NCBI GenBank assembly: GCA_020432165.1
Contig: JAGQGU010000001.1
Location: 120,655-184,654 of the forward strand
Direction: 5' to 3'
Origin: Thermomicrobiales bacterium
GTDB taxonomy: Bacteria > Chloroflexota > Chloroflexia > Thermomicrobiales > UBA6265
DNA length: 64,000 bases
A program made the position numbers and the translations under genes. Within the stretch, counting starts at the first letter, position 1, and every line of letters starts with the position of its first letter. Below are positions 12,105 through 61,987 of the stretch, piece after piece. The notes under the pieces are model-generated. The model was not told the DNA's origin. It searched no databases and saw only the letters and a program-made list of their open reading frames with translations.

Positions 12105-12180
12105 TGGTGCCAAGGCCCGGGCTCGAACCGGGGACCGCACGATTTTCAGTCGTGAGCTCTACCAACTGAGCTACCTTGGC
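12105..12180 (-). tRNA. tRNA-Phe (GAA)
   Basis: 76 nt including an encoded CCA. Acceptor GCCAAGG pairs with the 3' strand; the anticodon loop reads CTGAAAA with anticodon GAA; T-loop GGTTCGAGCCC is present. It is the last gene of a three-tRNA operon. Confidence 0.97.
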
Positions 12181-12211
12181 GGGTTTGCGATTGTGTTCCG
12201 CACCACAGTGG

Positions 12212-12286
<75 letters not shown>

Positions 12287-12311
12287 GCATCCGTGGTGAA
12301 CGATCAACCGG

Positions 12312-12396
12312 TGCCCAGGAAAGGATTTGAACCTTCACGCCCTAAACGGGCACTAGCCCCTCAAGCTAGCGCGTCTGCCGATTCCGCCACCTGGGC
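12312..12396 (-). tRNA. tRNA-Leu (GAG)
   Basis: 85 nt with the long variable arm of class II tRNAs. The acceptor GCCCAGG pairs perfectly, and the anticodon stem-loop CTAGC-TTGAGGG-GCTAG gives GAG. CCA is not encoded. It is the first tRNA of the operon. Confidence 0.96.
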
Positions 12397-44289: not shown

Positions 44290-44880
44290 TTACTTCCCGC
44301 CAGCGTTATCGAGCAGAGTCGCTATACGGCCAAATCCGCGATGCTGGGCATGCTGCAATGGTGTGACGCCATCCTTGTCCGCCAGGTTCACGTCGGCCCC
44401 GGCATCAATAAGCTGCTTGGTGATATTGATATAGGGTTCAGAGCCATCGCCCAGAATGACCACTTCCAGCAAACCGCTCCAGCCAAGATTGTTGACGTGA
44501 TTGACATCGACACCAGCCGCGATCAGCATGGCTACCGTTTCTGCATGTCCACGTTCGCAGGCAGGGATCAATGCGGTCCCTCCGTAGCGATTCGTGCTGG
44601 TCAGGTTCGCGCCATGCTCGAGTGTCAATTGCAGGATCTCGTTGTAGCCACGGGCCCCCGCAAGGAGATAGGGTGAATCGAGGATGTCGTCTTGCGCATT
44701 CACATCTGCGCCAGCCTCCATCAACACCCGGGCGATCTCGATATTGTTGGCAGTGACAGCAGCCAGCAACGCCGTGCGACCATCTTCATCCCGGTATTCC
44801 AGATCGACGCCATTCGCGATCATATCTCGCACACGGTCGTAATCGTTGGCAACAACCGCATCGATAAGGGGCACGTGCAT
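44290..44880 (-). CDS. Ankyrin-repeat protein
   Basis: About 196 residues from ATG 44880; an ATG at 44901 would add seven residues. Five to six ankyrin repeats of about 33 residues are visible, with typical units such as DEDGRTALLAAVTANNIEIA and RYGGTALIPACERGHAETV. There is no signal peptide or other domain, so it is a cytoplasmic binding protein. The partner is unknown. It is read divergently from glcD and sits 20 nt upstream of the hemolysin III gene on the same strand. Confidence 0.9.
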   Translation of the reverse strand: MHVPLIDAVVANDYDRVRDMIANGVDLEYRDEDGRTALLAAVTANNIEIARVLMEAGADVNAQDDILDSPYLLAGARGYNEILQLTLEHGANLTSTNRYGGTALIPACERGHAETVAMLIAAGVDVNHVNNLGWSGLLEVVILGDGSEPYINITKQLIDAGADVNLADKDGVTPLQHAQHRGFGRIATLLDNAGGK

Positions 44881-44992
44881 GGCTTTGGCTCCGGTACGCA
44901 TTCAACAAGTCATTCCGCTAAGCATACAGTCTCGATTGCCAGCGGACATTTCACCACTGATACTATGTGACATGGCAGGAAGGAGTCCCGGC

Positions 44993-46453
44993 ATGACCAA
45001 CACGCCGCTGGTGAACGATCTCATTCGGGTTTGTGGCGAGGCAGGTGTACGCCACCGTCGCGCTGATCTGCTCGTCTTCGAGGCAGACGGCTCTGCGGAT
45101 GGTTCTCCGGAAAAAGTTTTGCCGCTCGCCATCTGTCTCCCCACATCTACGGAGCAGGTCGCTGGCTGCGTGAAAGTCGCACGCAAGTACGGCGTGCCGG
45201 TTATCGCTCGCGGAGCCGGTACCGGACTCAGTGGTGGTGCTGTCCCGTTGGCTGAGGGGATTATCATCTCGCTTACCCGTATGGATCGCATTCTGGATGT
45301 GAATCTGGCGGAGCGGACTGCGCTTGTCGAACCTGGCCTGATAAATCTCGATCTTTCTACTCACATCAAGGCCGATCGCTTCTTCTTCGCCCCCGATCCC
45401 AGCAGTCAGAAAGCGAGCACGATCGGCGGCAATATCGCCGAGAATGCTGGCGGTCCGCATTGTCTGAAGTACGGCGTCACCACCAACCATATTCTGGGTG
45501 TCGAGTTTGTGTTGCCTAATGGCGATGTTGTTTGGCTCGATAGTAATCAGACCGGATATGGCGGGCTCGATCTCACGGCCGCGATCGTTGGTTCCGAAGG
45601 AATGTTCGGCATTGTCACACGAGCCAAGGTGCTGCTCACACCGATTCCGGAATCTATCAGCGTCATGCTGGCGGCATTCGCCAGCATGGACGATGCTGCT
45701 CAGGCGGTTACCGAGATCATTGCCAGCGGCACGATGCCATCATCACTGGAGATCATGGATTCGCTCTCGATGCAGGCCGTCGAAGCTGCCTATCACGTTG
45801 GTTATCCCACCGAAGCAGCGGCAGTGTTGCTGGTAGAGGTGGATGGTCACCCGCTTGAAGTGGCCGAGATCAGTGCGGAGGTGGAAGCGCTTTGCCGTCG
45901 TATCGGTGTGGTGCAATATCGTCAGAGTTACGATCCGGTGGAACAGGCTGGGCTTTGGCTTGGTCGCAAGATGAGCCTGGCTGCCATGGGCAGGCTCGCA
46001 CCTAACTACTACCTGCAAGATGCTGTGGTGCCACGGAGTCAGTTGGTGAAGACGCTGGATGAAGTGGCACGCCTGAGCAACGAGAGCGGATTGCTGGTCA
46101 GCAATGTCTTCCACGCCGGCGATGGGAATCTACACCCGCTCATTCTCTTTGATCGCCGGGAGACCGGTGCGGTTGAACGCGTACTTCATCTCAACCACGA
46201 TCTGGTGGTGGCCTGCGTCGAACTTGGCGGTACGCTCAGTGGCGAGCATGGTATTGGCAGCGAGAAACGCGACCACATGGATCTGATCTACAACGAATCC
46301 GATCTGCGCGCAATGGCTGGTCTCAAACGCTCCTTCGATCCCGACGATGCGTTCAATCCGGGTAAAGTCCTGCCGAAAGGCATGCTTTGCGGCGAGGTGA
46401 AGGATCTGCACATGCAGCGTATGGCTCAAAAGTACGGCATTGTGGCGTTCTAG
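44993..46453 (+). CDS. glcD: Glycolate oxidase, FAD subunit
   Basis: 486 residues from ATG 44993 with AGGAAGGAG upstream. It oxidises glycolate (or D-lactate) to glyoxylate. The PCMH-type FAD domain carries VPVIARGAGTGLSGGAVPL and KASTIGGNIAENAGGPHCLKYG. The C-terminal domain has GDGNLHP and SGEHGIGSEKR, with the ligands typical of GlcD/D-lactate dehydrogenases. It is the first gene of glcDEF; glcE begins 9 nt later. Confidence 0.94.
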   Translation: MTNTPLVNDLIRVCGEAGVRHRRADLLVFEADGSADGSPEKVLPLAICLPTSTEQVAGCVKVARKYGVPVIARGAGTGLSGGAVPLAEGIIISLTRMDRILDVNLAERTALVEPGLINLDLSTHIKADRFFFAPDPSSQKASTIGGNIAENAGGPHCLKYGVTTNHILGVEFVLPNGDVVWLDSNQTGYGGLDLTAAIVGSEGMFGIVTRAKVLLTPIPESISVMLAAFASMDDAAQAVTEIIASGTMPSSLEIMDSLSMQAVEAAYHVGYPTEAAAVLLVEVDGHPLEVAEISAEVEALCRRIGVVQYRQSYDPVEQAGLWLGRKMSLAAMGRLAPNYYLQDAVVPRSQLVKTLDEVARLSNESGLLVSNVFHAGDGNLHPLILFDRRETGAVERVLHLNHDLVVACVELGGTLSGEHGIGSEKRDHMDLIYNESDLRAMAGLKRSFDPDDAFNPGKVLPKGMLCGEVKDLHMQRMAQKYGIVAF

Positions 46454-46462
46454 GAGGCTGCT

Positions 46463-47587
46463 GTGATTCCTCATCAACTGAACGTTATCGATACGATCGC
46501 CATTGAGTCCGTCGATCATCTTGCCGAAGTTGTGGCCGCTGCCTCTGCGACAAATCAGGCATTGCTTCCCATTGGGGGAGGGACCTGCCTGGCTACTGGT
46601 TGTATCACCGAGACGCCGTATCTGGCGTTGGACCTGAGCGAGCTCAGCGGTATCGATGACTATATTCCCACCGATATGACGGCCTCTTTTCAGGCAGGAA
46701 CATCGCTCAAGCAGGTGCGCACAGCATTGGCAGCGAATGGGCAGGAGCTTCCGATTGATCTGGCGGAGGATGACGCTGGCACGATCGGTGGCCTGGTCGC
46801 GACCGGCTTCTCGGGTCCCCGTCGCCTGGCGCAAGGCACGCTCAAGGATCTGATCATCGGCTGCGAATACGTGCGTGGCGATGGTCTGCTGGCCAAGGCC
46901 GGCGGTATGACCGTCAAGAACGTCAGCGGTTTCGAGATCAGCCGGTTGCTTCATGGCAGTTGGGGATCGCTGGCGATACTGACGCGGGTAAATCTGAAAC
47001 TGCTTCCACAACCTCGCGGTGACAGGACGATCACCTGGACCGATGAGAACTTGTCAGCAGCGATTGCGCGTCAGCAGACATTGCTACAGGCGTTACCGAT
47101 GGCAGTAGCTGTCCAGTCAGTCAGAACAGCCATGGGTATTGCTACCAGTATTCGCTTCATGGGTCGCGAAGCGGCGATTGCTGATTACCTGGCGCGGGCC
47201 ACGGCACTCGTCGGCGATCCGTCTGGCGATTCTGCGGATTGGGTCCTCCCTCGGGCGAATGAGGCGCAGCCTCTGATCGTCTGTACTGCTCACCTCAATG
47301 AACTTGTCACCAATGCGACTATGCTCGAACAGATGGCTGGTATCGGCGAGATTCGGGTCTCCCTGGGCACGGGCACACTCTGGGCGACAATTGATCCTGC
47401 CCAACTTGACATGGCAATGGTATCGGCCGCCGTCACGGGCCTGTGGACGATCGAGGGTGGTCCAGCCACCTGGAAGGCTGGCCTGAATGTCTGGGGGCCA
47501 GATCGCGGCGACGGTAAGGTCGCCCAATCCATCAAACAGCAGTTCGATCCGGTTGGCGTGTTGAACCGCGGTCGCCTTTTCGTCTAG
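46463..47587 (+). CDS. glcE: Glycolate oxidase, FAD-binding subunit
   Basis: 374 residues from GTG 46463 with AGGAGG upstream. Its FAD-binding part is shorter than GlcD's and includes LLPIGGGTCLATG, TIGGLVATGFSGPRRLAQG and KAGGMTVKNVSGFEISRLLHG. The last is a reliable GlcE signature. It associates with GlcD and the iron-sulfur subunit GlcF. Confidence 0.93.
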   Translation: MIPHQLNVIDTIAIESVDHLAEVVAAASATNQALLPIGGGTCLATGCITETPYLALDLSELSGIDDYIPTDMTASFQAGTSLKQVRTALAANGQELPIDLAEDDAGTIGGLVATGFSGPRRLAQGTLKDLIIGCEYVRGDGLLAKAGGMTVKNVSGFEISRLLHGSWGSLAILTRVNLKLLPQPRGDRTITWTDENLSAAIARQQTLLQALPMAVAVQSVRTAMGIATSIRFMGREAAIADYLARATALVGDPSGDSADWVLPRANEAQPLIVCTAHLNELVTNATMLEQMAGIGEIRVSLGTGTLWATIDPAQLDMAMVSAAVTGLWTIEGGPATWKAGLNVWGPDRGDGKVAQSIKQQFDPVGVLNRGRLFV

Positions 47588-47602
47588 TTCTGGAGGAACC
47601 TC

Positions 47603-48991
47603 ATGGCAACGATCAGTCTCATCGATGAACTCCAGAAACCGATTCCCTTCAGCGGCCACGATATCCCCGAGGATGACTTGCTCCGTGCCTGTGTTCACTG
47701 CGGGATGTGTCTGCCAAGCTGTCCGACCTATCGAGAAACCGGCGATGAAGCGTCTTCCCCGCGTGGTCGTCTCTGGTTGATGAGTGCCGTATCGGATGGA
47801 AAGCTCAGTTTGCTGGACGAAGACTTTGGCGAGCAAATGTACCAATGCCTGAATTGTCGCGCCTGCGAAGCGGTTTGCCCGAGCGGTGTTCAGTATGGCC
47901 CGTTGGTGGAAGCAAGCCGCTCGCAGCTGGAGCAACATCGCCAGCGACCGCTCTGGCAACGCGTCTTGCGTAACACTGTCATGAGTTGGCCATTCGATGA
48001 TGTCCGTCGTATGCGCGCTGGTGCCATGGTGCTGCGTCTCTATCAGCGCAGCGGAATGAGTTCGTTCCTGCGTAAGACCGGTATCCTGCGCATCATTGGT
48101 CTGGAGAATCTGGAACGCATGGTGCCGGATATCGAGGAAGCGCCGCTGACACCGGGCACAGAGACCTGGACTCCACAGAATGTGATCGGCCATGCACATG
48201 TCTTCAATGGCTGCGTCATGAGCTCAGTCTTTGGCGATGTCAATCGGGCAACCGGTCGTGTGCTTGCACACAACGGCTACGCGACCGATGTCCCGGTGGG
48301 GCAGGGGTGTTGTGGTGCGATCTACAGTCATACCGGCATGCTCGATAAGGCACGGGTGCTCGCCCGCGAGAATATCGATGCATTCGAACGTGCAGGTGAG
48401 GGAACAATTGTCGTCAACGCCGCCGGTTGTGGCAGCGCGCTGAAGGAATACCCGCACCTGCTTAAGGACGATCCCGTCTACGCTGAGCGCGCCAAAGCAT
48501 TCGCTAGCCGTGTCTTCGATGTCAACGAACTGTTGGACAAACAGCCACTGGTGCCGATGAGTTCGCCTATGGCAGCCACGATCACGCTTCAGGAACCCTG
48601 CCATCTGGTGCACGCACAGCGCATTTCCGCGCAACCGCGATCGCTACTGAAGCAGGTTCCGGGATTAACGCTGATCGAAATGCACGAGAGTTCGCTCTGC
48701 TGCGGGAGTGCTGGTATCTACAACATCACCCGACCGCAGATGGCTGATGCGCTTGGCGATCGCAAGGCGAAGAACGCGATCGCGACGGGTGCCGAAGCTG
48801 TTGTCACCAGCAATCCCGGGTGTCACATGCAGCTGCGAACCTCGCTCATCCGCAATGGTTCAGAGCAACCAGTCGAGCACATCGTCTCGATTCTCGACGT
48901 GGCGTACGGTGGCAGCGCTGCCAATAGCTGGGCCATTGACGACTATGCGGCTAAACCGTCTGATCCTTCTCGGCCGCAATCGGGAATCTGA
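47603..48991 (+). CDS. glcF: Glycolate oxidase, iron-sulfur subunit
   Basis: 462 residues, ATG with TGGAGG upstream. Two [4Fe-4S] sites occur at Cys30/33/36/40 (ACVHCGMCLPSCP) and Cys82/85/88/92 (CLNCRACEAVCP). Two CCG domains (VFNGCVMSS ... GQGCCGA, and LQEPCHLVH ... SSLCCGSAGIY) follow, as in GlcF and heterodisulfide-reductase-type subunits. It passes electrons from glycolate to the quinone pool. Its 3' end overlaps the convergent histidine kinase gene by 41 nt. Confidence 0.94.
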   Translation: MATISLIDELQKPIPFSGHDIPEDDLLRACVHCGMCLPSCPTYRETGDEASSPRGRLWLMSAVSDGKLSLLDEDFGEQMYQCLNCRACEAVCPSGVQYGPLVEASRSQLEQHRQRPLWQRVLRNTVMSWPFDDVRRMRAGAMVLRLYQRSGMSSFLRKTGILRIIGLENLERMVPDIEEAPLTPGTETWTPQNVIGHAHVFNGCVMSSVFGDVNRATGRVLAHNGYATDVPVGQGCCGAIYSHTGMLDKARVLARENIDAFERAGEGTIVVNAAGCGSALKEYPHLLKDDPVYAERAKAFASRVFDVNELLDKQPLVPMSSPMAATITLQEPCHLVHAQRISAQPRSLLKQVPGLTLIEMHESSLCCGSAGIYNITRPQMADALGDRKAKNAIATGAEAVVTSNPGCHMQLRTSLIRNGSEQPVEHIVSILDVAYGGSAANSWAIDDYAAKPSDPSRPQSGI

Positions 48992-53098: not shown

Positions 53099-54892
53099 TT
53101 GAGAGAGTATCCGCTCGATCCAATAGATGGGGGCAACCGACCTGATCCAGGTCGGCAGCGGTCGACTCCATTTGCAGCCCAGCTCGCATACAGCGTCGCA
53201 GGGGTCATTGTTTGGCTCCAGCAAACCAGGCGTAACCGTCGCGATCTTGCGCATTTCCTCGAGAGTCTCGTTCTCATCCTGCTCGGTGTCGCCATGCTGA
53301 TCTCGGCGGCCGTTACCGATATGTATCTGCATCGTGGTGTGGAAAGCGGTGCCGATCAACCCTACGTGGTGCAGCCGAGTGGGCGCGAACTTTCCACCAA
53401 CGTCGATATGCGCGGCCTCACTCCTGAACAGATGGAGAGCGTCGCCGGTACCTTGCAATCATCTGGATACGGATTTGTGCGTCAGGAGGTCAGTTGGGCG
53501 CAGATCGAGGCTACGCAGGGCCAGTACGACTGGACTGAGTACGATCAGATATTCCAGACCTTGAGCGACCATGGCATCGGTGTGATCGCGGTAATTGTCG
53601 ATTCGCCTGCGTGGAGCTGGGCGGGTGACATTATTCCCAGCGAAGCGCAACCTCCCGCGGATCCATCTACACTCGAGGCATTCTCGCGGGATCTCACCAG
53701 TCGCTACAAGACCTCGGTTCGCTTTATTCAGGTTTGGCATCAACCGAACCTCGCCAGTCGCTGGGGCGGTGTCCCTTCCACGGGAGAAAGCTTTCGACCC
53801 TATCTCTCGGCAGCTTTCTATGGCGCACGTAGCGGCAACCCGGAGGTTCAGATTATCCTGCCGGAGTTGGCCGTTACCAGTGATGTCGATGAAGGGATGG
53901 GCGATCTAGCCTGGCTTCAGTCTGTCTACAACGCTGGTTCGCGAGATATCTTCGATATTGTTGCGATTCAGCTAGACGGTGGCCAATCGTCCCCTGATGA
54001 CCGCTCGGTGAGCGCGGACAAGCAGAATTTCTCACGCGCCATCCTCTTCCGCGAACTCATGCTCAAGAATAACGACGGCGAGACACCCGTCTGGGCCACG
54101 TCTTTCGGCTGGAGTGCGGATGGTGTGCACGTTACACGGGAGCAGCAGGCAGAGTATGTCGTACGAGCGCTCTCTCGTTCCTGGAGTGAGTGGCCGTGGA
54201 TGGGCCTGATGGTGCAGTGGAAGTTCACGACACTCCCGGGCGATCCCGAAGCCAGCTACGCCACAGCACCGGAGGGTCAGGCAACACCACTCTTCCGTCG
54301 GCTTAACGATCCGGAACTGATCCGTCGTTCTGATATCGCGAACACCGGCTTCACGCCGATGGATGCAGATTCCGTGCAGTACGAAGGCACCTGGGCGGAT
54401 CAGCATCTGGAAGGGCGTACGTTCCGTACTACAAACCAGACGGGCGCGACGGTCACCTTTGAATTCCATGGTACCGGCCTCATCTCCTATATCCGTACTG
54501 GTCCGCAGTCTGGCGATCTGAAAATCACGCTGGATGGGGAGGCGATCGATGGTGGTGCTGAGGATGGTAACTGGAGCTATTACTATCAGTATCAGACAAA
54601 CGATTATCCCCAGAGGCTCTTCTCCAATCTGGAGGAGGGGAATCATGTGGTCACGATTACGTTGGCAACACCGGGACAGCTTACACTTGGCGGTATGGTA
54701 GTGGAACGTCAGCCACCATTTATCTGGCCAATCATCATGATTACCGCCTCAGGCGTGCTAGTCCTGCTGGTCGGTATTCGGTCGTTTATCTACTTCGTGG
54801 CGATCCGGGCTGGCCACCTGACCCGCTGGGAGAATGTCACCTCACCGGAGCTACCTCGCATGCCCGATTGGATGCCGGAGCGACAACGATGA
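53099..54892 (+). CDS. Membrane-anchored glycoside-hydrolase-like protein lacking both catalytic glutamates
   Basis: About 597 residues from TTG 53099, preceded by AAGGTGA; the true start may differ. One membrane segment near 56-76 and another near the C-terminus (about 540-565) flank a GH-A-clan TIM-barrel domain (about 95-400) and a beta-sandwich domain (about 420-530). The barrel keeps the order of this clan, with GYGFVRQEVSW at the start. Where active enzymes read WNEPN, this has WHQPN (His214-Gln215), and where they read TEFGW, this has TSFGW (Ser335). Both catalytic glutamates are therefore missing. It heads the polysaccharide operon and overlaps the next start by 4 nt. Confidence 0.8.
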   Translation: MREYPLDPIDGGNRPDPGRQRSTPFAAQLAYSVAGVIVWLQQTRRNRRDLAHFLESLVLILLGVAMLISAAVTDMYLHRGVESGADQPYVVQPSGRELSTNVDMRGLTPEQMESVAGTLQSSGYGFVRQEVSWAQIEATQGQYDWTEYDQIFQTLSDHGIGVIAVIVDSPAWSWAGDIIPSEAQPPADPSTLEAFSRDLTSRYKTSVRFIQVWHQPNLASRWGGVPSTGESFRPYLSAAFYGARSGNPEVQIILPELAVTSDVDEGMGDLAWLQSVYNAGSRDIFDIVAIQLDGGQSSPDDRSVSADKQNFSRAILFRELMLKNNDGETPVWATSFGWSADGVHVTREQQAEYVVRALSRSWSEWPWMGLMVQWKFTTLPGDPEASYATAPEGQATPLFRRLNDPELIRRSDIANTGFTPMDADSVQYEGTWADQHLEGRTFRTTNQTGATVTFEFHGTGLISYIRTGPQSGDLKITLDGEAIDGGAEDGNWSYYYQYQTNDYPQRLFSNLEEGNHVVTITLATPGQLTLGGMVVERQPPFIWPIIMITASGVLVLLVGIRSFIYFVAIRAGHLTRWENVTSPELPRMPDWMPERQR

Positions 54893-56337
54893 TCGAAACA
54901 GGCAGCAACCGCTTCCCCATGGTCCTGGCCCTGCTATGCACGGCGTTGCTGGGAGGAATCGGCTATGCAGTCTGGCTCGGTTATGCCGAGCAAACCATTC
55001 CTGGGTTGGCAATGGTGGTGGCTGCGATCGCGTTGAGCGCGATCTCGCCAGCAGCCGGGCTCGCTGGCGTGATGATGGCGCTGCCGACCATGCAGCATAT
55101 CAATCCCATGCCTCGCGGCGAGTTCAGTTTGATCGAACTCGCGATCATCACGAGCACCTTCGGTATCGGACTCAATCTTCTTCTGGTCTCATTGCGGTCG
55201 GGTTGGAGGCATCTGGGTGACCTCTTCACTCCCGCCCAGATCGTGGTGCCCGCGATCATGTTGGTTGGTGCTACCGCGATCTCGCTTCTCAATCTCGCCG
55301 ATCCATCGCATATGACCGAATCGCTGCGGGAAGTGCGGTTGGTCATCATCGAACCGCTTATCTTCTTCTTTACCGCAAGACTTGTGCTACGTCGGGATCA
55401 CAATCGCAATTGGGTGAGCATTGTCTTTATCCTCACCGGTGCTGCTGTCGCGGTTTACGGTGTGGCCCAGATTGTCTTTGATCTCGGTGGTGTGCAGGCT
55501 GGCGATATCACCCGTGCCACCGCGCTTTATTCGCATCCGAACAATCTCGCCATCTATCTCGAGCGTACGCTGCTCTTCACGCTGGGTGTCTGCATTATGC
55601 GACCTCGCTGGGTGCCGATGTGGATTCTGGCTTCCATACAAGCCGTAGGGCTGCTGGCTACATTCTCCCGCGGTGCCCTGGTTGGTGTGGTTGTTGGCGT
55701 GGGTGTGGTGCTGCTCTTTATCGGCGCATGGCGCTGGATCGCCGGCCTGGCCGCCGCCGCGGTGGTGATTGGGCTGATTGGCTTGCTGCTCTTCCCTGAT
55801 CGTTTACTGGATGTCGGTGGTGGTGGCACCGAACCCACCCGCTTTGCGATATGGCGGTCGGCGATTGCCATGGTCAAAGAGCATCCTGTCTTCGGACTCG
55901 GGCCCGATCAGTTCCTCTATCAGTACATTCGCCGTTTTGTGGAACCGATGGGGTGGCCGGAACGGTATACATCGCATCCGCACAACATCATCCTGGATAC
56001 ATGGCTGCGGCTCGGAGTGCTCGGTTTGGCAACACTGGCCACGCTCATATTCGGCGTTGTCTGGTTGATTCAACGCACTACCGCGCAGATTCGTCAGGAT
56101 GCCTGGGCGATCGGCGCAGTAGCAGCTCTCTTCGGCGGCTTTATTCACTCGATGGTCGATAATGGCTTCTTCCTCGCCGACCTCGCGACCATTAGCTGGT
56201 TCCTGATCGTTATCATCATCACCGTCCCCCGGGCACAAACGGCTTCGGTAACGGCTCCAGCCAAGATTGTTGATCCACCAACGACCCTTTCCGTCGGCGA
56301 GACATGGCCCACCTGGCAAGGAACCGCGGCGCGATGA
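54889..56337 (+). CDS. O-antigen ligase / Wzy-family polymerase-like protein (first)
   Basis: About 482 residues with about 12 membrane segments. The start is ATG 54889, overlapping the previous TGA (ATGA). The large periplasmic loop near the C-terminal half carries HPHNIILDTWLRLGVLGL, which holds the H-x-H-N pattern conserved in Wzy_C-type ligases and polymerases. An Arg-rich preceding motif (TRFAIWRSAIAMVKEHPVFGLG) is also typical. It either joins polysaccharide to its carrier or polymerises repeat units in the outer membrane face of the cell membrane. Confidence 0.88.
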   Translation: MIETGSNRFPMVLALLCTALLGGIGYAVWLGYAEQTIPGLAMVVAAIALSAISPAAGLAGVMMALPTMQHINPMPRGEFSLIELAIITSTFGIGLNLLLVSLRSGWRHLGDLFTPAQIVVPAIMLVGATAISLLNLADPSHMTESLREVRLVIIEPLIFFFTARLVLRRDHNRNWVSIVFILTGAAVAVYGVAQIVFDLGGVQAGDITRATALYSHPNNLAIYLERTLLFTLGVCIMRPRWVPMWILASIQAVGLLATFSRGALVGVVVGVGVVLLFIGAWRWIAGLAAAAVVIGLIGLLLFPDRLLDVGGGGTEPTRFAIWRSAIAMVKEHPVFGLGPDQFLYQYIRRFVEPMGWPERYTSHPHNIILDTWLRLGVLGLATLATLIFGVVWLIQRTTAQIRQDAWAIGAVAALFGGFIHSMVDNGFFLADLATISWFLIVIIITVPRAQTASVTAPAKIVDPPTTLSVGETWPTWQGTAAR

Positions 56338-57764
56338 CCTCTCTACTCGCCCGGAAATTCTGGTTGCTGATCCTGGCAATTCTTGTCATCGGTGTAGCTG
56401 CCGGGGGTGTGCATTGGCTCATTACGGTGGCTGCGTTGGGTGTTGTGGCGTGTATCGCCCTGTTACAGCCAGCGATGGTGGCCGCCCTGGTTGTTGCCAG
56501 CATTCCCATCCAGTCGGAAGTGATGTTGCCATTCGTACGTGGTGAACTGACCGTCACCCAGCTGACCCTTTTCGGGCTGATAGCAGGTTGGGGAGTGATC
56601 TTCTGGAAACGACGTATCTGGCTCGATTCCGTGGTCGTTGGCTTCCTCTGCCTGCTGGCTGCCTACTGCTTTAGTTTTTTGGCCGTGGATACCCCTTCGC
56701 TATGGTTTGAGGAAACATATCGCTGGGCGGTTGCAGGGCTCTTCTACGTCATCTGCCGGTCGGTCATTACCAGCTGGGATGAAGTCCGCTATAGCTTGCT
56801 GGCTGTCGCGGCGGGTGTGTTGGGTGTGAGCCTTTTGAGCATTGCACAAATCGGGACTGGTGGCGGATCGGTTCGGGTTTCGGGAACATTTGGTACACCG
56901 AACACGCTCGCTGCCTATCTGGAGATGACCGTGCCAATCTTGTTGGCGGTTCTCGCGGCAGCGCGGTGGGGGAGTGGCGACAGGACGATTGGTGTCTCCG
57001 AGAAGTGGTTCATGCTCGCTGCCTCAGCGATCGGAATCCTTGTCATCGGCTTCACCCAGTCGCGGGGAGGTTGGCTCGGATTCACCGCCGCTGGTGTTGT
57101 GCTCTGGATGAACGTTCCTGGCAGAAGCAAGTTCTACATTCTTGGTACTGCCGCCGTGATCGGAGGGGTGTTTTTGCTCACACCTCCTGGCCAATCCCAG
57201 CTTGAACGGTTTCTGGAGATACGTACCGAGACAGCGACGACGGATGATAGCGAGAGTACCGACCTCGCTTCATACGATGTCGGTGCTGGTCGAGGAGCCA
57301 TTTGGGCGGCCGCCCGCGCAATGATTGCCGATCACCCGGTGATTGGTCTTGGTGCTGGCGAGTTTGATGAACACTATCGGCAGTATGTTCCCAGTTGGGC
57401 AAATCGAATCCCCCGTGGACACGCGCACAACGTCTGGCTGCAGATGGGTGCTCAGGCAGGAGTGATTGGTATTGCAGGCTACAGCGTGTGGTACGCCGCC
57501 AGTATCTGGAGTCTCGTAACTGCCAGGGGGCGAACACGACCTTCGTTCGATCGCTGGATCATCATTGGTGTGATCGCTGTCTTTGCGGCCTATACCATGC
57601 ACAGTTTGGTGGATTACCTGAATGTATTGAGTCTGGGGCTGCAGTTGTCAGTCCTCACCGCGATTGCCCTCAATCTGGCACCAGTCCCCCTGATGCGCTA
57701 TAAAGCTGTGCGGGAGCAACGCCCGGTTATCACCTATTCGGAGCAGCGTGCGTGTCCAATCTGA
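56334..57764 (+). CDS. O-antigen ligase / Wzy-family polymerase-like protein (second)
   Basis: About 476 residues, about 11-12 membrane segments; ATG 56334 overlaps the previous stop (ATGA). Its conserved loop reads RGHAHNVWLQMGAQAGVIG, again H-x-H-N, after AIWAAARAMIADHPVIGLG. The two genes are related but clearly diverged. Having two side by side suggests one polymerase and one ligase, but sequence alone cannot assign the roles. It overlaps the next gene by 13 nt. Confidence 0.88.
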   Translation: MTSLLARKFWLLILAILVIGVAAGGVHWLITVAALGVVACIALLQPAMVAALVVASIPIQSEVMLPFVRGELTVTQLTLFGLIAGWGVIFWKRRIWLDSVVVGFLCLLAAYCFSFLAVDTPSLWFEETYRWAVAGLFYVICRSVITSWDEVRYSLLAVAAGVLGVSLLSIAQIGTGGGSVRVSGTFGTPNTLAAYLEMTVPILLAVLAAARWGSGDRTIGVSEKWFMLAASAIGILVIGFTQSRGGWLGFTAAGVVLWMNVPGRSKFYILGTAAVIGGVFLLTPPGQSQLERFLEIRTETATTDDSESTDLASYDVGAGRGAIWAAARAMIADHPVIGLGAGEFDEHYRQYVPSWANRIPRGHAHNVWLQMGAQAGVIGIAGYSVWYAASIWSLVTARGRTRPSFDRWIIIGVIAVFAAYTMHSLVDYLNVLSLGLQLSVLTAIALNLAPVPLMRYKAVREQRPVITYSEQRACPI

Positions 57765-58828
57765 ATCCTGGAGCCGAATCTTCGGTCGAAGACGCATCGC
57801 TGGAGCTTGAACTGGAGCGCGAGAGCGAACCGCGTGATATCGGCAGCTCACTCCTCACACCGCGCACTGCCATCTCCTTCTTGCTGGCCCTTGTGGTCTT
57901 CTATTTCGTTATTCGTCGGACCAATCTCGATCTCGGTGAAGCCCTTCGCCAGATCAGACAGGCCAACTTCTTTTACTTCCTCGGAGCACTGGCGGCCTAT
58001 TACTTCACGTTTGTGATTCGTGGATGGCGCTGGTCCAAAATGCTGGCATCGGCGGGCATTAGTGAGGAGACCGGCCACGACATGCCCGATACCGTCGGCA
58101 TGTTCGAGATCTTTACGCTCTCCTGGTTTGTGAACTCGATTCTGCCGGCGCGTATGGGCGATGCCTATCGCTGTTACCTCATCAAACGTCGTGCCAATGC
58201 ATCGTTTGGTATCTCCCTGGGTACGATGCTGGCTGAGCGACTTGTTGATCTTGTCGTGCTGGTTCTGATGCTTCTGGTGGCGGGTATCGCGGTGTATGGC
58301 ACACATGCGCCGGATCGTGCGGAGAACGCATTCCTCGTCGGTGGAGTCGTAGTAGTTATTGGCGTGACCGGTGTGGTGGTGCTGTGGCTGTTGCGCAATC
58401 GCATCGAAGGTTTCCTGCCTGCCAAGATCGCCCGTGTGTATGCCCGTGTCCGCAATGGGCTCTTCGACTCTCTGGCTCAACCTCGTACCCCGGTACTCGT
58501 ATCTGTTGGCATCTGGCTCTGTGATGGACTCCGTGTCTTTCTGGTGGCATGGGCGCTCGGGCAGCACATCTCCTATCAGGCCGCCATTATGGTGGCACTC
58601 CTGAGTGCGCTGGTGAGCACGGTACCGATTACCCCGGCAGGACTGGGATTCGTGGAGGGCATCATGATCTACGCCCTGACCACTATCGGTGTCCCCAACA
58701 GCACAGCTGGCGCTATTGCATTGCTGGATCGGGTGGTGACCTATGGCTCGCTCCTGATCGTTGGTGGCATCATGTATCTTTGGGTGTTGCGCAAGGACTT
58801 GAGGGCGATTGATGCGCGTCCTGATTGA
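57752..58828 (+). CDS. Lysylphosphatidylglycerol synthase TM family protein (AglD/UPF0104-like)
   Basis: 358 residues starting at GTG 57752, with an acidic cytoplasmic N-terminus and about eight membrane segments. The segments FVIRGWRWSKML, LPARMGDAYRCYLIKRRA and ITPAGLGFVEGIMI are conserved in this family. Members lacking the synthase domain act with glycosyltransferases and are proposed flippases or acceptor-lipid handlers. It sits inside the polysaccharide operon between the ligases and the GT4 gene, which supports that role. Confidence 0.87.
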   Translation: MSNLNPGAESSVEDASLELELERESEPRDIGSSLLTPRTAISFLLALVVFYFVIRRTNLDLGEALRQIRQANFFYFLGALAAYYFTFVIRGWRWSKMLASAGISEETGHDMPDTVGMFEIFTLSWFVNSILPARMGDAYRCYLIKRRANASFGISLGTMLAERLVDLVVLVLMLLVAGIAVYGTHAPDRAENAFLVGGVVVVIGVTGVVVLWLLRNRIEGFLPAKIARVYARVRNGLFDSLAQPRTPVLVSVGIWLCDGLRVFLVAWALGQHISYQAAIMVALLSALVSTVPITPAGLGFVEGIMIYALTTIGVPNSTAGAIALLDRVVTYGSLLIVGGIMYLWVLRKDLRAIDARPD

Positions 58829-59933
58829 AGCCAGCGCCGCCTGTAACCAGCACGCTGGCATCGGACGGTATAGTCGCAGTATTCTCCAGCGACTGATTCC
58901 CCTGGCTCCTGCTGATCAGTTCACACTCTTGCGTGCACCCGAGGACCCTGCGATCAATCGGTTCGATTGCTCCTCGTGGCCGAATGCACGCTTGCGGACA
59001 CTGCCCTTCAATCGTCGCAATGCCGACCGACTGTGGTTTCGCATGTGTGCTCCGATAGATGCCCGCATTTTTGCCGGGCCTGCAGATGTTGTCTATTCCC
59101 CGGATTTCACCGCTCCGCCAATGTGGCGTGTCCCGCGCATGATCACGATTCATGATCTGGCCTTTCTCACCCGACCTCAGCACACCACCGATGCCTTGCG
59201 TCGCTATCTGGAAGCCGTCGTCCCTCGGCAGATTGCCGGTGCTGATTTGATTGCGGTCGTCTCGTACGCCACGGGCCATGATGTGCAGCGGTACTATGGC
59301 GTCTCTCCCGATCGTATCGTGGTCGCGCGTAATGCCGTGGATGATGCCTTCTACAACGCCCATCCACCCACAGAACAGGATCGCATCCGACTGGGATTGC
59401 CACCTCGCTATCTGGTGATGCTGGGAACCATTGAACCGCGGAAGAATCATCTGACCGCCCTGGCTGCGCTTGAGGTTGCGGGAGTAGGAGTGCATACGCC
59501 GCTCGTCATTGTCGGACGTCCCGGCTGGGGGCATGAGACAGCGATGGCGAAGATCGCCGAACTGGCCGCCAAAGGCATGGTGATTCACCTGGACAACGTG
59601 GCAGATCCGGATATTCCCATGATTCTGGCTGGTGCGCAGGGTATGGTCTATCCCAGCTGGACCGAGGGATTTGGACTTCCGGTGGTAGAGGCGCTCGCGA
59701 CCGGGATTCCGGTAGTGACCAGCAACGATGCCGCATTGCGCGAAGCCGGAGGAGCGTTTGCCGAATACGTTGATCCGGAGGATGTCGATGCGCTGGCATC
59801 TATACTGCAATCATTCGCGGAGACGGACAACGATCCCGTTGCCGCGGCTGCTCGCATCGAATGGACAAGGCAGTTTTCATGGGACTTCTCGACATCTATG
59901 GTCTACGACGCACTCCGAAAGATGAGCAGGTAG
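58812..59933 (+). CDS. GT4-family glycosyltransferase
   Basis: 373 residues from ATG 58812, overlapping the previous stop. GT-B fold: the N-terminal domain opens with MRVLIEASAACNQHAGIGRYSR, and the C-terminal domain has MLGTIEPRKNH, then PSWTEGFGLPVVEALATGIPVVTSN with the conserved Glu-x7-Glu donor-binding motif. It transfers a sugar from a nucleotide-sugar to a growing glycan in the cytoplasm. The sugar is unknown. The small membrane protein gene overlaps its 3' end. Confidence 0.93.
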   Translation: MRVLIEASAACNQHAGIGRYSRSILQRLIPLAPADQFTLLRAPEDPAINRFDCSSWPNARLRTLPFNRRNADRLWFRMCAPIDARIFAGPADVVYSPDFTAPPMWRVPRMITIHDLAFLTRPQHTTDALRRYLEAVVPRQIAGADLIAVVSYATGHDVQRYYGVSPDRIVVARNAVDDAFYNAHPPTEQDRIRLGLPPRYLVMLGTIEPRKNHLTALAALEVAGVGVHTPLVIVGRPGWGHETAMAKIAELAAKGMVIHLDNVADPDIPMILAGAQGMVYPSWTEGFGLPVVEALATGIPVVTSNDAALREAGGAFAEYVDPEDVDALASILQSFAETDNDPVAAAARIEWTRQFSWDFSTSMVYDALRKMSR

Positions 59934-61845: not shown

Positions 61846-61852
61846 TGTTGGG

Positions 61853-61926
61853 CGGAAGTGACGGGATTCGAACCCGCGATCTCAGCCTTGACAGGGCTGC
61901 ATGTTAGGCCACTACACCACACCTCC
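61853..61926 (-). tRNA. tRNA-Asp (GTC)
   Basis: 74 nt to the discriminator base G. Acceptor GGAGGTG pairs with CACTTCC (one G-U). The anticodon arm CAGCC-CTGTCAA-GGCTG gives GTC. CCA is not encoded. Confidence 0.96.
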
Positions 61927-61987
61927 AACAGCCCGGTAAATATAGCAAAGCGAGATAGGGGCGTCAAGGATATTTGTGGATGAACTT

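Follow-up and report, generated by a model that had tools for sequence, protein, structure and literature searches.

The window, i.e. the whole 64,000-nucleotide stretch of DNA analysed here, carries at 53099-54892 an ORF encoding a protein of 597 aa, with a TTG start codon at 53099 and GAAGGTGA a few bases 5' as a good ribosome-binding sequence. A search of the window's genome recovered a single copy. The ORF heads an operon that continues with two Wzy_C membrane proteins, a flippase-like protein and a glycosyltransferase; a promoter and terminator scan gave no signal above chance. The frame, coordinates and residues reported in an earlier sequence-only reading of this DNA were reproduced. 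The features are as follows, f1 being the window's GTDB family:

53099..54892, + strand: predicted catalytically dead PslG-like barrel protein, 597 aa, gene 1 of the operon (ORF, homology)
53258..53326, + strand: transmembrane (TM) helix 1, residues ~54-76 (hydropathy maximum 2.4; model helix 48-85)
53384..54328, + strand: predicted (beta/alpha)8 barrel, residues ~96-410 (structure models; Foldseek top match PslG)
53405..53407, + strand: D103, end of beta1, invariant in f1 (29/29), Phe or Leu in intact relatives
53738..53743, + strand: H214-Q215, site of the acid/base motif, aligned with PslG N164-E165
53864..53866, + strand: E256, end of beta5, invariant in f1 (30/30), Gly, Pro or Ala in intact relatives
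53975..53977, + strand: D293, end of beta6, Asp in 25/30 f1 members, Tyr in the closest intact relatives
54101..54103, + strand: S335, nucleophile site, aligned with PslG E276
54329..54709, + strand: C-terminal beta-sandwich, residues ~411-537, the part retained across the order (model; profile search)
54722..54793, + strand: TM helix 2, residues ~542-565, then a short tail carrying a conserved Trp (hydropathy, alignment)
54889..54892, + strand: ATGA start/stop overlap between the dead-barrel gene and Wzy_C A (sequence)
54889..56337, + strand: Wzy_C membrane protein A (Pfam PF04932, E=8e-25)
56304..57764, + strand: Wzy_C membrane protein B (Pfam PF04932, E=1e-22)
57752..58828, + strand: flippase-like protein, the most persistent partner gene (PF03706/TIGR00374)
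58809..59933, + strand: GT4 glycosyltransferase (domain matches)

The two hydrophobic segments found by hydropathy flank the barrel and the sandwich, which agrees with the membrane anchoring and the C-terminal beta-sandwich proposed from the letters; the sandwich matched CE2_N weakly, below the cut-off. Elsewhere in the window, three adjacent ORFs (44846-48991) resembled, by reading, the glycolate oxidase set glcD, glcE and glcF, tRNA-Phe, tRNA-Val and tRNA-Leu stood in a row at 12105-12396, and a single tRNA-Asp lay at 61849-61927.

The nearest solved structure to the 53099-54892 protein was PslG (4zn2/5bx9, E=3e-12), the GH39-related endo-beta-glucanase of the Psl operon of Pseudomonas aeruginosa. 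The full-length model was poor (pLDDT 61); the barrel-only model was usable (pLDDT 72, pTM 0.76), and Foldseek again placed PslG on top (5bx9, 9g17 and 4zn2, TMq 0.73-0.78). Remote likeness in both sequence and fold was also seen to the GH39 beta-xylosidase 5jvk, although f1 lacks the canonical acid/base and nucleophile pair. Based on these comparisons, the barrel is assigned as PslG-like and GH39-related. The GH42, GH5 and GH35 labels from Pfam and NCBIfam were rejected, their matches being short and weak and PslG far better. In the alignment, WNEPN of PslG faced WHQPN (E165 to Q215) and STEWGW faced ATSFGW (E276 to S335), so that Gln215 and Ser335 do stand at the two catalytic sites, E165 being the acid/base and E276 the nucleophile of PslG (PMC11912335; PMC6813494).

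The gene was searched in 32 f1 genomes and found in 30, the two genomes without it being 65% and 75% complete. The nucleophile Glu at the end of beta7 (335) was kept in 0/30 members and the acid/base Glu of the NE motif after beta4 (215) in 1/30, G009 alone (L040:3715-5568), which reads WDEPN and has Ser at the nucleophile site. The GH-A catalytic pair is thus lost with the barrel retained, as the sequence-only reading had it. The Gln and Ser whose conservation it proposed to check are not conserved: residue 215 varied among L/R/Q/A/M/E/H/K and 335 among H/S/R/T, which argues against a new conserved motif at these sites, and Gln215 and Ser335 were rejected as functional replacements. All 30 genomes, from 19 genera, had a long open frame, interrupted in one case by a single TGA inside the match, and this concordance led to the rejection of a local frameshift or assembly artefact. 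No further full-length PslG-like copy was found in f1, where the two extra matches were short and weak.

Outside f1, both Glu were kept in 35/35 aligned homologues from the rest of the order, as in PslG, and two of these intact homologues, in family f4 (L057, L058), occupy the same operon slot. Normal motifs in the same context had been named beforehand as grounds for doubting the call, and they exist in f4; the intact slot homologues point to an active ancestor rather than to a wrong pseudoenzyme call. In a maximum-likelihood tree the dead f1 proteins formed one clade (SH-aLRT 83.9, UFBoot 92). With every aligned outside homologue intact, the simplest history is that the catalytic pair of an active ancestor was lost once, probably in the f1 ancestor.

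Within the genus, pN was 0.12-0.15 against a saturated pS of ~0.75; as dS was saturated, dN/dS was dropped and pN was compared with neighbouring genes, which it did not exceed. The dead-barrel gene is under strong purifying selection. Descent from an active enzyme, lost canonical residues and continued selection mark it as a pseudoenzyme, and a family-wide pseudo-glycosidase of PslG type, predicted to be non-hydrolytic, is well supported. The pocket face of the f1 barrel was more conserved than the other barrel positions (2.86 vs 2.29 bits; permutation p=0.0015), an excess resembling that in intact enzymes, and together with the pN pattern this upholds the continued selection proposed earlier.

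The pocket has nevertheless been remodelled. D103 and E256, both at strand ends, are absent from intact relatives, and T334 is likewise new and invariant in f1. Tyr293 of the closest intact relatives has become Asp in 25/30 members, Asn214 has become Asp in 26/30, and Arg165 of the closest intact relatives has become Val in 28/29. With His or Gln at residue 214 in the window protein and those closest to it, and Asn in G010, D214 was considered unlikely as a new catalytic Asp. The claim that surrounding residues are kept holds for the Trp lining, for W374 (26/30), which aligns with PslG Phe319, and for R128 (29/29), but several substrate-contact positions have changed. In GH-A enzymes, the Arg at the R128 site contacts the nucleophile, and D103 may be its new partner in f1. 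Apart from the stacking aromatic, PslG contacts were mostly lost (Val at the Y114 site, Asp or His at the N164 site), which suggests that the former ligand is probably no longer bound as before. Phe319 stacks on the -1 sugar in PslG (PMC11912335). For the f1 barrel, glycan binding is supported only indirectly, by W374 and the conservation of the pocket face. When scaled to the flippase-like gene, the dead barrel evolved 2-5 times faster than intact barrels, and at about the rate of its own sandwich and of the flippase-like protein, which implies that the enzyme-level constraint has gone and a weaker one is left; this fits partial relaxation.

A profile of the sandwich and TM helix 2 was searched in 61 genomes of the order. 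Matches were obtained in 56/61 genomes, including all 28 of high quality, and outside the order the profile gave weak matches only. The slots of the sister families f2, f3 and f4 retain the sandwich and TM helices with different N-terminal parts. The f4 slot (L057, L058) encodes a protein with an intact barrel, and another gene for an intact barrel lies upstream. The motif after TM helix 1 reads YLHRG in f1 and L057 and FLNRG in L058, and together with the C-terminal tail it supports orthology of the f1 and f4 slot proteins. The f2 slot protein is roughly 460-480 aa long with an N-terminal part unrecognisable as a barrel, and in f3 (including G045) the protein is TM-sandwich-TM, ~240 aa, and the barrel is absent.

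The f2 slot proteins (L076:3669-5147, L089:5812-7329, L097:2-1261, L098:8111-9577 and L099:7752-9200) share a conserved N-terminal domain of ~240 aa, which gave no Pfam match in L099, the one tested. Aligned with the barrel by hhalign, this domain scored a weak probability of 3-8%, with the beta4 region in register and a better result than the reversed control, which is only suggestive of a worn barrel. Intact PslG-like genes of the order fall into groups GH-A, GH-B (of f4, sharing the f1 operon slot) and GH-C, all with the barrel followed by sandwich and TM helix and, unlike f1, with both catalytic Glu. Group GH-A lies 5' of the slot gene in f4 and some f2 and f3 loci (L057, L058, L073, L076-L082, L089) and is absent from f1. 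Group GH-C lies outside the slot operon (L059:8611-10512, relatives L060-L072), its neighbours in L059 including a PMT_2 membrane protein, SelB and a PIG-L deacetylase. The f3 operon carries a GDP-mannose-dehydratase-like SDR gene between two Wzy genes (L073:4869-5828; L073 tested), which is absent from the window operon.

The reduced f2 and f3 slots lend themselves to a purely structural account, in which partner membrane proteins are held by the sandwich and two TM helices, leaving the barrel as a folded spacer that binds nothing. The f1 barrel's sandwich-like rate of evolution would fit such a spacer. However, a pocket face still conserved above the rest of the barrel, and the new, invariant D103, E256 and T334, would be unneeded in a mere spacer, and this account was judged unlikely, though it deserves to be kept in view.

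The same new residues could instead form a relocated active site, in which sugar hydrolysis or transfer would proceed via D103 (beta1) and E256 (beta5), perhaps assisted by D293 (beta6) or D214 (beta4). D103 and E256 are invariant in f1, are missing from intact relatives and sit at C-terminal strand ends, the catalytic face of such barrels. Other acidic residues in the catalytic positions would have spoken against a dead enzyme, and this objection keeps some force: D103 and E256 are new acidic residues of the pocket, although they do not occupy the GH-A positions at beta4 and beta7. Moreover, residue 214 is not acidic in the window protein and its closest relatives, D293 varies, and the Gly-to-Glu change at 256 may just fill the pocket. 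A relocated site therefore appears improbable, and the related proposal that D103 and E256 make a new catalytic or metal-binding pair, with a new glycan-processing activity tied to the flippase-like protein, is a long shot.

Concerning the operon neighbours, the sequence-only reading coupled the protein to two Wzy/WaaL-like proteins and proposed a chain-length role. The coupling stands in the window, where both downstream proteins pass the Wzy_C cut-off and the first overlaps the dead-barrel gene by ATGA. These are the only Wzy_C genes of the genome, and Wzy genes occur in the slot operon across most of the order, as would be expected if the protein set chain length for the neighbouring Wzy_C pair or guided their polymer. 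The tie is not the key one, however. No Wzy gene lies between the dead-barrel and flippase-like genes in g6, g12, g14 and g18, none lies beside the dead-barrel gene in the readable loci of g13, and WzyA alone went undetected in the L047 and L056 loci. No Wzy_C was found anywhere in G008 (98% complete), G020, G024, G014 and G015 (90-93%), all of which carry the dead-barrel gene; the Wzy-poor f1 genomes are all draft assemblies, and the same search was positive in other f1 members and control genomes. The gene does not, then, occur only together with a Wzy polymerase, and its retention in these five genomes makes a chain-length role unlikely as the conserved function; an accessory role for Wzy has little chance of being right.

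Nine genomes from the Wzy-poor genera have the PF03706 flippase-like gene directly 3' of the dead-barrel gene, with genes of other families beyond it; the flippase-like gene was not seen in the short stretch examined in G015 and G026. As the dead barrel stays beside this gene, wherever the neighbour could be read, despite Wzy loss, the flippase-like gene is its most persistent partner. Such a conserved neighbourhood is no proof of joint function. No description of this link was found in the searched literature, nor did the searches give anything on point for PslG-type pseudoenzymes or Chloroflexota homologues.

A decaying enzyme or local gene damage would fit the free variation at both catalytic sites and the faster evolution, but with long open frames across 19 genera and strong purifying selection it merits very little credence.

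The reading preferred here, to which we give an even chance, is that a protein derived from an active PslG-like enzyme now holds a glycan without hydrolysing it, as the partner of a flippase-like glycolipid system. The ancestor was an active, GH39-related, membrane-anchored endoglycosidase heading a surface-glycan operon. In the f1 ancestor, both catalytic Glu were lost and the pocket was rebuilt (D103, E256, usually D214 and D293, Arg165 to Val). The PF03706 protein would bring a glycolipid to the outer face, where the pocket of the barrel, together with the sandwich, would keep hold of a glycan or the head group of a glycolipid, or present it, and leave it uncut. From GH-A chemistry, hydrolysis is expected to be lost; the protein would also lie on the outer side of the membrane, bind a glycan and work with the flippase-like protein.

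Among known systems, PslG shares the fold, motif layout, membrane association and place in a polysaccharide operon. It is active, whereas the window protein has lost both Glu, has gained a sandwich and a second TM helix, and differs in its other contacts. Klotho and chitinase-like proteins are pseudo-glycosidases in which a glycosidase fold without catalysis has been reused for binding; they belong to GH1 and GH18, are eukaryotic and come from a context unrelated to the window protein. In one study, PslG activity was needed for normal Psl output (PMC6813494), and an E165Q+E276Q mutant did not restore Psl production (PMC6813494), which indicates that binding alone is insufficient in the Psl system.

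Glycosidases in polysaccharide operons are puzzling because they are able to cut the product. Here, one order presents in one slot a graded series that runs from an active enzyme through a remodelled dead one and an unrecognisable barrel to the sandwich alone, which allows asking what the non-enzymatic job is, and the natural loss of Wzy genes points to the flippase-like protein as partner, a link that is testable.
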